A stretch of 64,000 nucleotides of DNA from an uncultured Fidelibacterota bacterium. GTDB taxonomy: Bacteria; Fidelibacterota; Marinisomatia; Marinisomatales; TCS55. A model generated the notes under the pieces. The model worked only from the letters and a program-made list of their open reading frames with translations, searched no databases and had not been told where the DNA came from. Each line of letters starts with the position of its first letter. The first letter of the stretch is position 1. This document shows, piece after piece, positions 43,322 through 47,075 of this stretch. Made by a program: the position numbers and the translations under genes. The stretch covers positions 1 to 64,000 of the forward strand of contig CACHMU010000002.1 of NCBI GenBank assembly GCA_902581045.1, written 5' to 3'.

Positions 43322-43366
43322 TAAATACCTTAGATAAGGCTCTACAAATTAGCACTTAACTAAAAT

Positions 43367-43395
43367 AAAAAGCCCCCAATTATTGGGGGCTTTTT
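43367..43395. terminator. Strong intrinsic terminator
   Basis: aaaaagcccccaat-t-attgggggcttttt perfect GC hairpin with T/A tracts on both sides; lies between the Spy-like gene end and the serC start. Confidence 0.85.
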
Positions 43396-43410
43396 AACAA
43401 TTACTATAAA

Positions 43411-43917
43411 TTAAAATCGTCGTTTACCTTTTTGTTTTCCACCACGCATTGGAGGTCTATAGCTTTCTTTCATTCGTTTTTGAATTTGTTGCTTGACAGT
43501 AGGTTCAAACATTAGAAGCTTTATCTGTTGATTTGAATCCAAAATATCACCAGACTTTTTAATAAAATCAATTCTGCCTTTAGTCTTTTTTTCTTCAAAT
43601 GATTTTATATTTCCTAGAAGCCTATTAACATCAGATTTGGAAACTGTTTCGCCTTTTTTTACTTTAGTAAAAGTAGGCTCAAATAATTCCTTTTCCTCTT
43701 TGCGAATTTCCATCAATTGTTTTTGATGTGCACGCATAACAGGAAAAAACTTTTCTGCCTGACTTTGTGAAAGTTCCAAATGATCGGTCAATTTCCAGAC
43801 CATCATCATTTCCATTCTTTCACTATATTGGCCACCTGGTCCTTTTGGTTTCCCAGGTTGAGCCAATAGAAATCCTGTGGCAATTAAAAGGGTTGAAAGG
43901 ATAACATTTTTTTTCAT
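43411..43917 (-). CDS. Spy/CpxP (LTXXQ)-like periplasmic protein
   Basis: Signal peptide MKKNVILSTLLIATGFLLAQ; LTDHLELSQSQAEKFFPVMRAHQKQLMEIRKEEKELF, helical and highly charged. Confidence 0.7.
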   Translation of the reverse strand: MKKNVILSTLLIATGFLLAQPGKPKGPGGQYSERMEMMMVWKLTDHLELSQSQAEKFFPVMRAHQKQLMEIRKEEKELFEPTFTKVKKGETVSKSDVNRLLGNIKSFEEKKTKGRIDFIKKSGDILDSNQQIKLLMFEPTVKQQIQKRMKESYRPPMRGGKQKGKRRF

Positions 43918-44294
43918 TCTATACCTCTATTGTTCATAGCAATTATAGGTTCATATTGGATTTCATCCAAAAATATTATTGTTTCCCAGATATCATCGCT
44001 TGTATCAACTAAATAAGAAGCAATCTCATAAACATACTCCTCTGTTTCTGCATCCATTACTTCTAATGCTTGCAGATCATTTGATGCATAAACAGTAAAA
44101 TCATCAGTTAGTTGACTTATCGATGCAAATCCGAAGATAGCTAAAAATGCTGCTGCTGATACTCCATTCAAAAAACCAATTTTTTTCGCATATCGACGTT
44201 TAAGCTCCAAATGCAAATTATTAATAAAATTTTTCTCATCTATAGTCTGATTATGAGACTGGATGATATTTTTAAATTCTTTTTCGATATTCAT
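43914..44294 (-). CDS. Putative single-TM anti-sigma factor
   Basis: Immediately downstream of the ECF sigma gene; charged N-terminal domain, TM GFLNGVSAAAFLAIFGFASI, short extracytoplasmic domain. Confidence 0.6.
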   Translation of the reverse strand: MNIEKEFKNIIQSHNQTIDEKNFINNLHLELKRRYAKKIGFLNGVSAAAFLAIFGFASISQLTDDFTVYASNDLQALEVMDAETEEYVYEIASYLVDTSDDIWETIIFLDEIQYEPIIAMNNRGIE

Positions 44295-44297
44295 AAT

Positions 44298-44819
44298 TCA
44301 ATTCTCTAATTGATCTTTTAAGGTATTTACCGCATGATGATAATTTACCTTAGCAGAATTTTCACTTATTCCCATAACTTCGGCAATCTCTTTATACGGC
44401 TTTTCTTCCGCGATACGCATAGTTACTACTATCCTTTGCCTAGAAGGAAGTTTTGATACCGCAGCCCATAATTCTTCACGTCTCCATTCGTCCTCATTTG
44501 TAGTATCAAAATGGACTGGCTCAGGAGCTTGATCCAAGTGTAATAAGTTTCTCCATTTAGTTCTTTTAAGATACGTGTTAGACATATTTATATTTGCCCG
44601 ATAAAGATATGTTTTAAACTTTGACTGAAATCTAAATTTTTTAAGAGCTTTATACATTTTGATGAAAACATTTTGAGCTAAATCCTCTGCCTCAACGGGA
44701 TCTGCGGTGAACTTAATAAAAAAACCATAGGTTCCAGGTAGATGACGTTTAACCAATTCATTAAAAGAATCTTCATTTCCACTTTGAAATTGCTTTATTA
44801 GTTCTTCGTCCGTTTTCAT
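44298..44819 (-). CDS. ECF (RpoE-type) RNA polymerase sigma factor
   Basis: DSFNELVKRHLPGTYGFFIKFTADPVEAEDLAQNVFIKMYKAL (region 2); LPSRQRIVVTMRIAEEKPYKEIAEVMGISENSAKVNYHHAVNTLK (region 4). Confidence 0.96.
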   Translation of the reverse strand: MKTDEELIKQFQSGNEDSFNELVKRHLPGTYGFFIKFTADPVEAEDLAQNVFIKMYKALKKFRFQSKFKTYLYRANINMSNTYLKRTKWRNLLHLDQAPEPVHFDTTNEDEWRREELWAAVSKLPSRQRIVVTMRIAEEKPYKEIAEVMGISENSAKVNYHHAVNTLKDQLEN

Positions 44820-44831
44820 GCATATACCTAC

Positions 44832-44859
44832 TTAGACAAGTAAACGATTAAAAAGTTAA
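44832..44859 (-). promoter_or_regulatory. Predicted ECF-sigma promoter of the sigma-factor operon
   Basis: Minus strand TTAAC TTTTTAATCGTTTACT TGTCTAA; AAC and TGTCTAA separated by 16 nt, as in the two other copies in this window. Confidence 0.7.
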
Positions 44860-44870
44860 AATGTTCATGT

Positions 44871-44907
44871 AAAAAAAAAGGCTATTTCAATCTATTGAAA
44901 TAGCCTT
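44871..44907 (-). terminator. Intrinsic terminator downstream of LTxxQ lipoprotein 1
   Basis: Minus strand AAGGCTATTTCAAT-AG-ATTGAAATAGCCTT perfect 14-bp stem followed by a T tract. Confidence 0.9.
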
Positions 44908-44934
44908 AAAACTAAATGTAATGATATAGCCTAA

Positions 44935-45897
44935 TTATTTTTTGCCGGTACCATCACGGCCATCCTTATCTTTACCATCTCTTTTTCCACTGCAATGTTT
45001 TGAATATTGCATACTTAATGCTGTATAAATTTTTATAATTTCAATTTGTTTGTCGCTAAAGAGAGCTTCAATTTTACTATTTCTGTCTGCAATTAGTTGT
45101 TGCAGAGATTTTTTGATATCTTCTCTACTCATCTTTTCAGCTTTTGCTTTTTCCATTAAAGCTTTTTGTGCATCTGCAGATTCCTTATTAATTGCATCTA
45201 AAGATGTTTCTTGATCTGATGTCATTTCTAATGCGCCGACCATAGCATCGCGCTCTGCTTTTCTCATTGCATCCATTTTTTGTTTCATTTCAGCAAGCAT
45301 AGCATCAATTTTTGCTTTTTGCTCATCTGTTAACAATGCTTCAATTTCTGCAAGCATAGCGGTTTCAAGTGCTTCTAGTTCAACTCTTGCATCATCCCTA
45401 CTTAAAGTGCCAGCTTTTACTTTTTGCATTACGGCACCCATTTGAGCTCTATAAGACTCTGAAATAGACCGTAGAGCCAATTTTTGATTGTCGTCTAAAA
45501 CAGAATATATCATTTTCAAATCTGCTCCACCACGTTGATCGCCTCCAGGACCTTTACCACCACGATCAGCAACACTAGTACCATATAAATAAGGCACCAG
45601 CTGATCATTCATCCAACCAAAAAGTCTTTCTTTTTCATCATCAGAGAGTGAAGTTTGTAGCTCAGCTGATACTTTCCATAAAAAGCCTGGCTCACGGTGT
45701 TTCCCATTTTTCCCGTGACGATTTAAAGCATCATTTAATGAATTCAAACTACTTTTACTTAGACCAATATCTGAATCTAATCCTTGGGATAATGCAAGAA
45801 GATCAGGGTCCTCAACTAGGATATCTTCTTTATTTAATTTTTCACAACCAATCATTGCAAAAAAGACAACTAAAAGAAATAATGATAGTTTTTTCAT
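44935..45897 (-). CDS. Lipoprotein with repeated Spy/LTxxQ-like motifs (paralogue 1)
   Basis: Lipobox FFAMIGC from internal start MKKLSLFLLVV (the track ORF runs to 45987); SLSDDEKERLF, VLDDNQKLAL, LLTDEQKAKI, MTSDQETSL, LFSDKQIEII. Confidence 0.8.
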   Translation of the reverse strand: MKKLSLFLLVVFFAMIGCEKLNKEDILVEDPDLLALSQGLDSDIGLSKSSLNSLNDALNRHGKNGKHREPGFLWKVSAELQTSLSDDEKERLFGWMNDQLVPYLYGTSVADRGGKGPGGDQRGGADLKMIYSVLDDNQKLALRSISESYRAQMGAVMQKVKAGTLSRDDARVELEALETAMLAEIEALLTDEQKAKIDAMLAEMKQKMDAMRKAERDAMVGALEMTSDQETSLDAINKESADAQKALMEKAKAEKMSREDIKKSLQQLIADRNSKIEALFSDKQIEIIKIYTALSMQYSKHCSGKRDGKDKDGRDGTGKK

Positions 45898-45940
45898 AAG
45901 GCTTCCTATTTTTCCTAAATAAATTATTATACGCAGTGTT

Positions 45941-45968
45941 TTAGATAAAATATACTTTATTAAGTTAA
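45941..45968 (-). promoter_or_regulatory. Predicted ECF-sigma promoter of LTxxQ lipoprotein 1
   Basis: Minus strand TTAAC TTAATAAAGTATATTT TATCTAA; 16-nt AAC-to-TATCTAA spacer, 44 nt upstream of the ATG. Confidence 0.7.
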
Positions 45969-45985
45969 CATTTTTTTCCCTAATC

Positions 45986-46021
45986 AAAAAGAGCTGAACT
46001 ATAAAATAGTTCAGCTCTTTT
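45986..46021. terminator. Intrinsic terminator downstream of LTxxQ lipoprotein 2
   Basis: aaaagagctgaactat-aaa-atagttcagctctttt perfect stem with A/T tracts. Confidence 0.9.
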
Positions 46022-46052
46022 AATTAACTTATTTAAAGAGATTGTAAAAAAT

Positions 46053-47000
46053 CTAACCTTTACTTCCCTTTTTACCACCACGCATTTTTCCTTTTCCACT
46101 TTTATGCTTTTTCATACGAATCTCAAGAGCCTTATAAATTTTAATGATTTCTAATTGATTATCATCAAAAATGTTTGACATCTTTTCATTCTTAGTTGCA
46201 AAAATAGTTTTTAATCCTTCTCTTAATGTATCTTTATCTATATCACCATTTTTTGCTTTCTCAAAAAGACCCTTGGCCGCATCTCTTGCTTCTTGATTCG
46301 CAGTATCAAATTCAGATACCTGGCCTGAGGTCATTTCAAGGATAGCGATCATTACAGCTTTTGATGAGTCTTTATACGCTTGACGTTTAGCTTGATGATC
46401 CGCTTTATTCTGCTCAAGTTCAGCTTTTTGTTCATCAGTAAGTAGCGCATCAACTTCAGCCTTCATCGCTTCTCTTAAAGCATCCAGTTCGGCCTTAGCA
46501 TCTCCTTTAGATAGATTGCCATCTTTCACTTGCTCATGGACTGCTTTAAATTTTTCTTTATAAGCAACAATAATAGCTTTAAAAGTTACTTTTTGCTCAT
46601 CAGTCAGAACCTTAACAATACCACTAAATTCGCTACGATTTTTTCCGCCTTTCTTTCCTTTACCTTTTTTCCCTTTTGGATTACCAAATAATGGGATTTC
46701 TTTTTCTTCCATTTTTTCAAATAGGCGTGCTTTCTCTTCATCAGATAACTTATCAGCTAGTTCATCAGCAACTTTCCATAAGAACCCTGGTTCACGATGC
46801 TTTCCACCACGACCATGCTTATTTAAAATGCCATTAACTTCATTGGCAGATGTTTTACTTAGTCCAAGGTCCGATGATAATTCGGATGAGAAGTCTTGTA
46901 ATTCTGAATTGTCTAGTTCAACTCGATCATCAACCATTGGATTATCACAACCAATAGTCATTAGAAGTAGAGTTGAGATTGGCAAGATTAGTCTTTTCAT
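46053..47000 (-). CDS. Lipoprotein with repeated Spy/LTxxQ-like motifs (paralogue 2)
   Basis: Lipobox LLMTIGC; shares LNKHGRGGKHREPGFLWKVADEL and QLEIIKIYKAL with the neighbouring paralogue; KLSDEEKARLF, VLTDEQKVTFK, LLTDEQKAEL, MTSGQVSEF, IFDDNQLEII. Confidence 0.8.
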   Translation of the reverse strand: MKRLILPISTLLLMTIGCDNPMVDDRVELDNSELQDFSSELSSDLGLSKTSANEVNGILNKHGRGGKHREPGFLWKVADELADKLSDEEKARLFEKMEEKEIPLFGNPKGKKGKGKKGGKNRSEFSGIVKVLTDEQKVTFKAIIVAYKEKFKAVHEQVKDGNLSKGDAKAELDALREAMKAEVDALLTDEQKAELEQNKADHQAKRQAYKDSSKAVMIAILEMTSGQVSEFDTANQEARDAAKGLFEKAKNGDIDKDTLREGLKTIFATKNEKMSNIFDDNQLEIIKIYKALEIRMKKHKSGKGKMRGGKKGSKG

Positions 47001-47047
47001 AATTTACTTCCTTTTTTTCCTTTTATTAGTTTCATTCATTTAGCCAA

Positions 47048-47075
47048 TTAGATAATAGTTTTATTCAAAGGTTAA
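47048..47075 (-). promoter_or_regulatory. Predicted ECF-sigma promoter of LTxxQ lipoprotein 2
   Basis: Minus strand TTAAC CTTTGAATAAAACTAT TATCTAA; 16-nt AAC-to-TATCTAA spacer, 48 nt upstream of the ATG. Confidence 0.7.

Follow-up and report, generated by a model that had tools for sequence, protein, structure and literature searches.

The 64,000-nucleotide (nt) window analysed here (positions 1 to 64,000 of contig CACHMU010000002.1, from an uncultured Fidelibacterota bacterium) carries at 43411-47075 five minus-strand genes for an extracytoplasmic function (ECF) sigma factor, a putative anti-sigma factor, a Spy-like periplasmic protein and two LTxxQ-like lipoproteins (lip1 and lip2). We interpret this cluster, with a probability of roughly 0.65, as an autoregulated envelope-stress module of the RpoE type and of the sigma/anti-sigma/Spy kind. 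A first-pass annotation of the window had proposed a self-regulating ECF sigma factor controlling Spy/LTxxQ-type envelope proteins. Comparison with related genomes supports this proposal: the promoter-like site is conserved at the sigma operon and also stands before further Spy-like genes and outer-membrane proteins, so that the predicted regulon includes TonB-receptor-like outer-membrane proteins, which lay outside the scope of that annotation.

The window contains exactly three exact matches to the bipartite motif TTAAC-N16-TRTCTAA, all on the minus strand and each with a 16-nt spacer: TTAAC-N16-TGTCTAA ahead of the sigma operon (44832-44859), and TTAAC-N16-TATCTAA ahead of both lip1 (45941-45968) and lip2 (47048-47075). 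These are the copies that had been picked out by eye, and their coordinates, strand, sequence and spacing proved correct; inspection of the open reading frames (ORFs) likewise confirmed the five genes as real. The motif is rarer in shuffled sequence, with a chance expectation of 0.29 per window (mean of 100 dinucleotide shuffles), and three copies occurred in no shuffle. Across the source metagenome-assembled genome (MAG; 943 kb, 58.5% complete), a looser pattern gave 9 matches compared to 5 for a reversed control, a mild enrichment that we rejected as too weak to prove a regulon. Comparative evidence was therefore needed, and obtained, and the scans of many genomes did return recurrent targets.

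Upstream of the sigma orthologue, the site TTTAAC[CT]TTT-N12/13-nGTCTAA was found at 50 of the 51 loci having upstream DNA (L111, which has none, was left out of the count), in 13 of the 14 families possessing the orthologue and around spacers that have diverged. Conservation at orthologous loci thus extends across a bacterial order. The single locus without a canonical site belongs to G050 (L117); some loci show GTCTTA or GTCAAA at the -10 position, and the canonical site of G007 (L094) lies at G007:C40:27565-27593. A matrix built from 49 sites gave, in per cent, T96 T100 T100 A100 A100 C100 C59 T96 T98 T98 on the -35 side and T47 G98 T100 C100 T90 A86 A98 on the -10 side. As sites were selected for AAC plus T-rich and GTCTAA-like boxes, conservation at those positions is partly circular; features that did not guide selection are also conserved, namely the TTT before AAC (96–100%) and a near-fixed distance to the start codon (about 8–17 nt). 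Across the window copy (44819-44840) and the orthologous loci, that start often reads ATGNATG, and with so short a distance from the -10 box the sigma mRNA would have little or no leader, unlike the mRNAs of the lipoprotein units, which would carry leaders of some 30–40 nt.

When strong sites (score ≥14) were collected over 635 kb comprising the orthologous loci and the window region, 51 lay before sigma, 14 before lip2, 8 before lip1 and 6 elsewhere, compared to 7 matches of at least this score in the backwards control. Two of the six sites elsewhere (L087, L088) belong to genus g6, in which sigma is directly preceded by a small Spy-like gene that has a site to itself, in the lipoproteins' usual place. 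Throughout the bacterial order the arrangement sigma, anti-sigma, Spy-like is preserved; serC commonly lies downstream of it and a divergent UvrD/PcrA-like helicase gene upstream (both named by eye). Two MAGs, G002 (L071/L072) and G025 (L082/L083), each hold two near-identical cluster copies on separate contigs, reflecting either duplication or mixed strains. At L077 (G015), an extra ORF of 128 amino acids (aa) between the anti-sigma and Spy genes (+902 to +1289 from the sigma start) joins a Spy-like signal peptide with anti-sigma-like sequence.

To describe the regulon beyond the window, pattern scans were run over 18 and 38 genomes; all genome-wide work consists of such strict pattern scans with script-called starts and heuristic signal-peptide calls on incomplete MAGs. 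Hits fell mostly at the sigma cluster, and the remainder, near control level in number, nevertheless contains recurrent targets. One is OMP1, a TonB-receptor-like outer-membrane protein (833 aa) that matches PF14905 and the TonB barrel. In each of the 25 orthologues whose start was usable, the site beats shuffled sequence (p at most 0.03), with a score of 9 or more in 20 of them; of the 14 paralogous receptors that likewise had usable starts, one has a site (L283, a second receptor of G020). The orthologues L326, L329, L330 and L332 likewise carry the site, and in G043 OMP1 lies directly behind spy inside the sigma operon and lacks a site of its own. The OMP1 site is still present in three MAGs in which no sigma was detected (G006, G031, G052), these being only 70–86% complete. 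A second protein, the TonB receptor OMP2 with a plug domain, has a site 10 nt upstream in the source genome. We rejected OMP2 as a universal target, since start calling failed or no nearby site was seen in most orthologues; in genus g7 (G036, G024, G028, G034, G008) it lacks an adjacent site because a Spy-like gene of about 130 aa (with LTDEQ, LTEDQ or LSxxQ) intervenes between site and receptor.

More generally, 24 intergenic hits outside the cluster stand no more than 110 nt ahead of a gene, and every one of these genes appears to encode an exported protein. Nineteen pass the signal-peptide test automatically (background ORFs, 27%), and the other five were judged by eye: at L220, L221, L224 and L304 the script had placed the start too far upstream or downstream, and L287 is a lipoprotein that the test missed. 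The 24 hits are not independent, as OMP1 and OMP2 orthologues recur among them. A possible further member, judged from sequence, is a set of related exported proteins (YHYH-like by eye) preceded by the motif at L213, L296 and L289, in G035, G033 and one genome of another family. Small His/Lys-rich exported proteins follow the motif at L288 and L291 in other families of the order.

Within the window, the three sites head three minus-strand units: lip2 followed by a hairpin, lip1 followed by a terminator, and sigma, anti-sigma and Spy-like genes followed by a terminator. We regard the units as separate because hairpins stand between them, each folding far better than shuffled sequence as judged by minimum free energy (MFE). 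A terminator scan flagged the intrinsic terminators of the lip1 unit (44878-44907; MFE -15.9 kcal/mol, z -5.6) and of the sigma operon, the latter lying after spy and ahead of serC as the only terminator of that operon (43366-43396; MFE -21 kcal/mol, z -4.0). The terminator-like hairpin of the lip2 unit (45982-46030; MFE -21.2 kcal/mol, z -6.6) was missed by this consensus scan.

The protein encoded at 44298-44819 (minus strand, as are all genes below) is, by its sequence, an ECF (group 4) sigma factor. It comprises regions 2 and 4 only, with Pfam matches above the curated cut-offs (Sigma70_r2, 7e-14; Sigma70_r4_2, 7e-16) and 105 bits to TIGR02937 (cut-off 42.9). Its closest solved chains are P. 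aeruginosa sigma-H (AlgU), SigW and RpoE (AlgU/RpoE 2e-15 to 1e-12; CnrH 3e-5), and its nearest named relatives come from MAGs of Candidatus Neomarinimicrobiota (SAR406), the lineage to which the source MAG itself belongs, at 94% identity in SAT170 and 84–86% in NAT51. The putative anti-sigma factor (43914-44294), recognized by hydropathy, gene position and orthologue alignment, has a cytosolic N-terminus of about 38 residues, one transmembrane segment (39–57) and a periplasmic part of about 65 residues; by hydropathy, its 42 orthologues have a single transmembrane segment beginning at residue 39–45. Because the HxxxCxxC zinc motif occurs in 0 of these 42 and this early segment leaves no room for a long cytosolic domain, it would not be a class I zinc anti-sigma factor. 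Class II (CnrY-like) anti-sigma factors wrap the sigma with two helices of a cytosolic domain shorter than 50 residues (PMC7406223), a size that the protein fits in a comparison of length alone. Matches of this protein to solved structures by sequence were rejected, being only a designed membrane protein and an unrelated protein.

The third product of the operon (43411-43917) is a Spy/CpxP/CnrX-like periplasmic protein with a signal peptide and a conserved WKLTxxLxLxxxQAxxFFP core. Its match to Pfam Metal_resist (PF13801) lies below the cut-off (E 0.004; 17.7 vs 29.2), and its structural model (predicted local distance difference test, pLDDT, 73) resembles an STV protein, Spy and CnrX with probabilities up to 1.00 and E-values of only 0.05 or worse.

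The two lipoproteins are paralogues, 42–44% identical: lip1 (44935-45897) has 320 aa and a lipobox, and lip2 (46053-47000) has 315 aa with the lipobox IGC, recurs in orthologues and is all helical in an AlphaFold2 model (pLDDT 79). For lip1 we took the ATG that yields a lipobox; the alternative TTG start at 45987 is disfavoured because the ORF would then cross the promoter. Their earlier description as LTxxQ-like holds in view of sub-cut-off matches to Pfam LTXXQ (PF07813; lip1 21.2, E 5e-4; lip2 15.2, E 0.037; cut-off 24.3), whereas the mention of repeated LTxxQ motifs was generous, as a strict count finds one in lip1 and two in lip2. Part of the lipoprotein profile also aligns weakly to the Spy-like profile. 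A lipoprotein of about 320 aa that follows spy in other genera was considered as a homologue and rejected, since only the signal peptides align. The lip2 site lies 34–49 nt ahead of the start in orthologues of three genera, with CATCTAA or TATCTAA as the -10 box. The lip1 site is found in most genus-g7 orthologues with GTCTAA-like boxes and is strong there and in one congener.

The conservation of the promoter, the make-up of the operon and the list of targets come directly from the comparison of genomes; from these we infer promoter recognition by this sigma, anti-sigma activity, the part of the Spy-like protein as a sensor and the nature of the inducing signal. In unstressed cells, the anti-sigma factor would use its short cytosolic stretch to tether the sigma at the inner membrane, and the Spy-like protein, made from the same operon, probably docks on the periplasmic part of the anti-sigma. 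Envelope proteins that are unfolded or have failed to assemble may then pull the Spy-like protein off, or trigger proteolysis of the anti-sigma factor, and so free the sigma to read TTTAAC[CT]TTT-N12-nGTCTAA promoters. Transcription of its own operon would provide positive feedback, with the anti-sigma and Spy-like proteins as a built-in brake. The freed sigma would also drive both LTxxQ-type helical lipoproteins, which we view as periplasmic proteins resembling holdases, as well as TonB-receptor-like proteins encoded at other places in the genome; in a related genus, an additional Spy-like gene stands ahead of one of these receptors. As a tentative extension, which we put forward as a possibility only, this would amount to a SAR406 order-wide regulon uniting Spy-type chaperones and TonB-receptor-like proteins, in which a titrated Spy-like sensor serves a receptor-assembly checkpoint that raises both instead of shutting down outer-membrane protein synthesis.

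Several results weigh against the envelope-stress module. The lip1 site of the source genome is a weak matrix match (5.2; shuffle p 0.015), and no lip1 site was found in the congener L070 nor within 150 nt in genus g8. The lipoprotein fold has no confident match among solved structures, with none to Spy or CnrX for lip2, and sequence comparison placed the anti-sigma factor in none of the known anti-sigma families. Once the recurrent targets are set aside, the scans returned about as many hits as the control. The link between this sigma and the motif is itself comparative rather than biochemical, which would leave room for another sigma, housekeeping or ECF, to read sites that merely adjoin the sigma gene. 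We consider this highly improbable: the motif is rare genome-wide and clustered at the sigma locus, and its -35 and -10 boxes, with AAC and GTCTAA, are of the ECF type. Among the further ECF sigmas of these genomes, two groups were also compared, one without a strong upstream site and one with a distinct motif. Because other ECF sigmas carry a different upstream motif or none, the motif fits this sigma and does not appear to be a general ECF or housekeeping promoter here. The sigma with the distinct motif, TGACAACC-N12-TGTCATA (L318-L325, same family of genomes), probably represents another autoregulated system, judging by its upstream sequence.

The nature of the signal can be read in two further ways. 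With sigma, anti-sigma and promoters unchanged, the cluster might be a delivery module, a co-expression regulon for TonB receptors: Spy-like holdases would accompany particular receptors on their way to the outer membrane, and the assembly state of the receptors, not general stress, would be the signal. Two receptor families carry the site, a Spy-like gene shares an operon with OMP2 in genus g7, and OMP1 lies within the sigma operon in G043. Since receptors are nevertheless off-cluster in most genomes, and the constant partners are Spy-like and LTxxQ proteins rather than receptors, we judge this account unlikely. RpoE of E. coli reduces porin synthesis. In contrast to a delivery signal, it is activated by excess outer-membrane protein (PMC8103513). 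A metal sensor of the CnrYXH type, with the Spy-like protein as a CnrX-like sensor whose binding of a metal ion releases the sigma, would account for the same three components, for the match of the Spy-like model to CnrX structures (TM-score by target 0.59–0.66) and for a cytosolic anti-sigma segment no longer than the one in class II CnrY. It is disfavoured by the lack of conserved ligands, as His exceeds 50% in one alignment column only (72%) and the window protein has no Cys. The sigma is moreover nearer to AlgU/RpoE than to CnrH, and no metal-efflux gene was seen behind the examined sites; we regard metal sensing as improbable. An envelope-stress module of the RpoE type remains our preferred interpretation.

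If correct, this interpretation provides a major uncultured ocean lineage with a predicted sigma factor along with its promoter sequence and its targets, a set that metatranscriptomes could test directly. It would also point to a design that recurs elsewhere, with a Spy-type chaperone gene coupled to an ECF sigma and anti-sigma in front of it, and would open to direct test the idea that envelope damage can be sensed through Spy instead of RseB/DegS. No paper came up in a full-text literature search that combined Marinimicrobia with ECF sigma factors, and the literature found does not describe such a module paired with LTxxQ lipoproteins in tandem and with TonB-receptor-like proteins. The closest experimentally studied system that we found is CirY/CirZ-Spy of Phocaeicola vulgatus, a sigma/anti-sigma/spy operon shown experimentally to be autoregulated (PMC13114119). 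Both systems combine an ECF sigma, an anti-sigma and a co-transcribed spy in one operon with a small envelope-protein regulon, but CirY has as further targets two genes with a presumed action on carbohydrate or peptidoglycan, whereas those predicted for SAR406 are the tandem LTxxQ lipoproteins and the TonB-receptor-like proteins. Of 71 distant relatives of the sigma from outside the phylum, about 28 have a Spy-like gene after the sigma gene, and sigma-Spy loci of Bacteroidales and KSB1 (L146, L148, L153, L154, L156, L157, L166, L172, L187, L192, L207) carry an upstream CGCAAGTTTT-N12-TGTC[TA]-type sequence with an equal 12-nt spacing and another -35 box, the cirY promoter itself lying outside this comparison. 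Candidate sites in distant Verrucomicrobia were rejected because they resemble coding sequence. Given these distant sigma-Spy loci and their parallel promoter, we regard the Neomarinimicrobiota system as a lineage variant of a wider kind.

Relative to E. coli RpoE/RseA/RseB, the SAR406 system has in common an RpoE-like sigma, an AAC...GTCTAA-type promoter, a membrane anti-sigma, an envelope regulon and predicted autoregulation, but the cytosolic part of its anti-sigma is too short for an RseA-like domain, the Spy-like protein occupies the place of RseB, and the activated genes appear to include outer-membrane receptors. E. coli Spy and CpxP of the LTxxQ family are likewise helical periplasmic proteins induced by envelope stress; spy is under Cpx/Bae two-component control, however, and the SAR406 lipoproteins are larger (about 320 aa) with a weak family match. 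The likeness to CnrYXH of Cupriavidus metallidurans, noted in the first-pass annotation, holds as an analogy of layout and apparent fold (a short cytosolic anti-sigma segment, one transmembrane segment, a periplasmic partner modelled as Spy/CnrX-like and an ECF sigma) rather than as demonstrated relatedness, in keeping with the AlgU/RpoE affinity of the sigma, the single well-conserved His column of the Spy-like protein and the lack of Cys in its window copy: the two systems differ in gene order and sigma subgroup, and in SAR406 neither a conserved metal site nor metal-resistance targets were seen.

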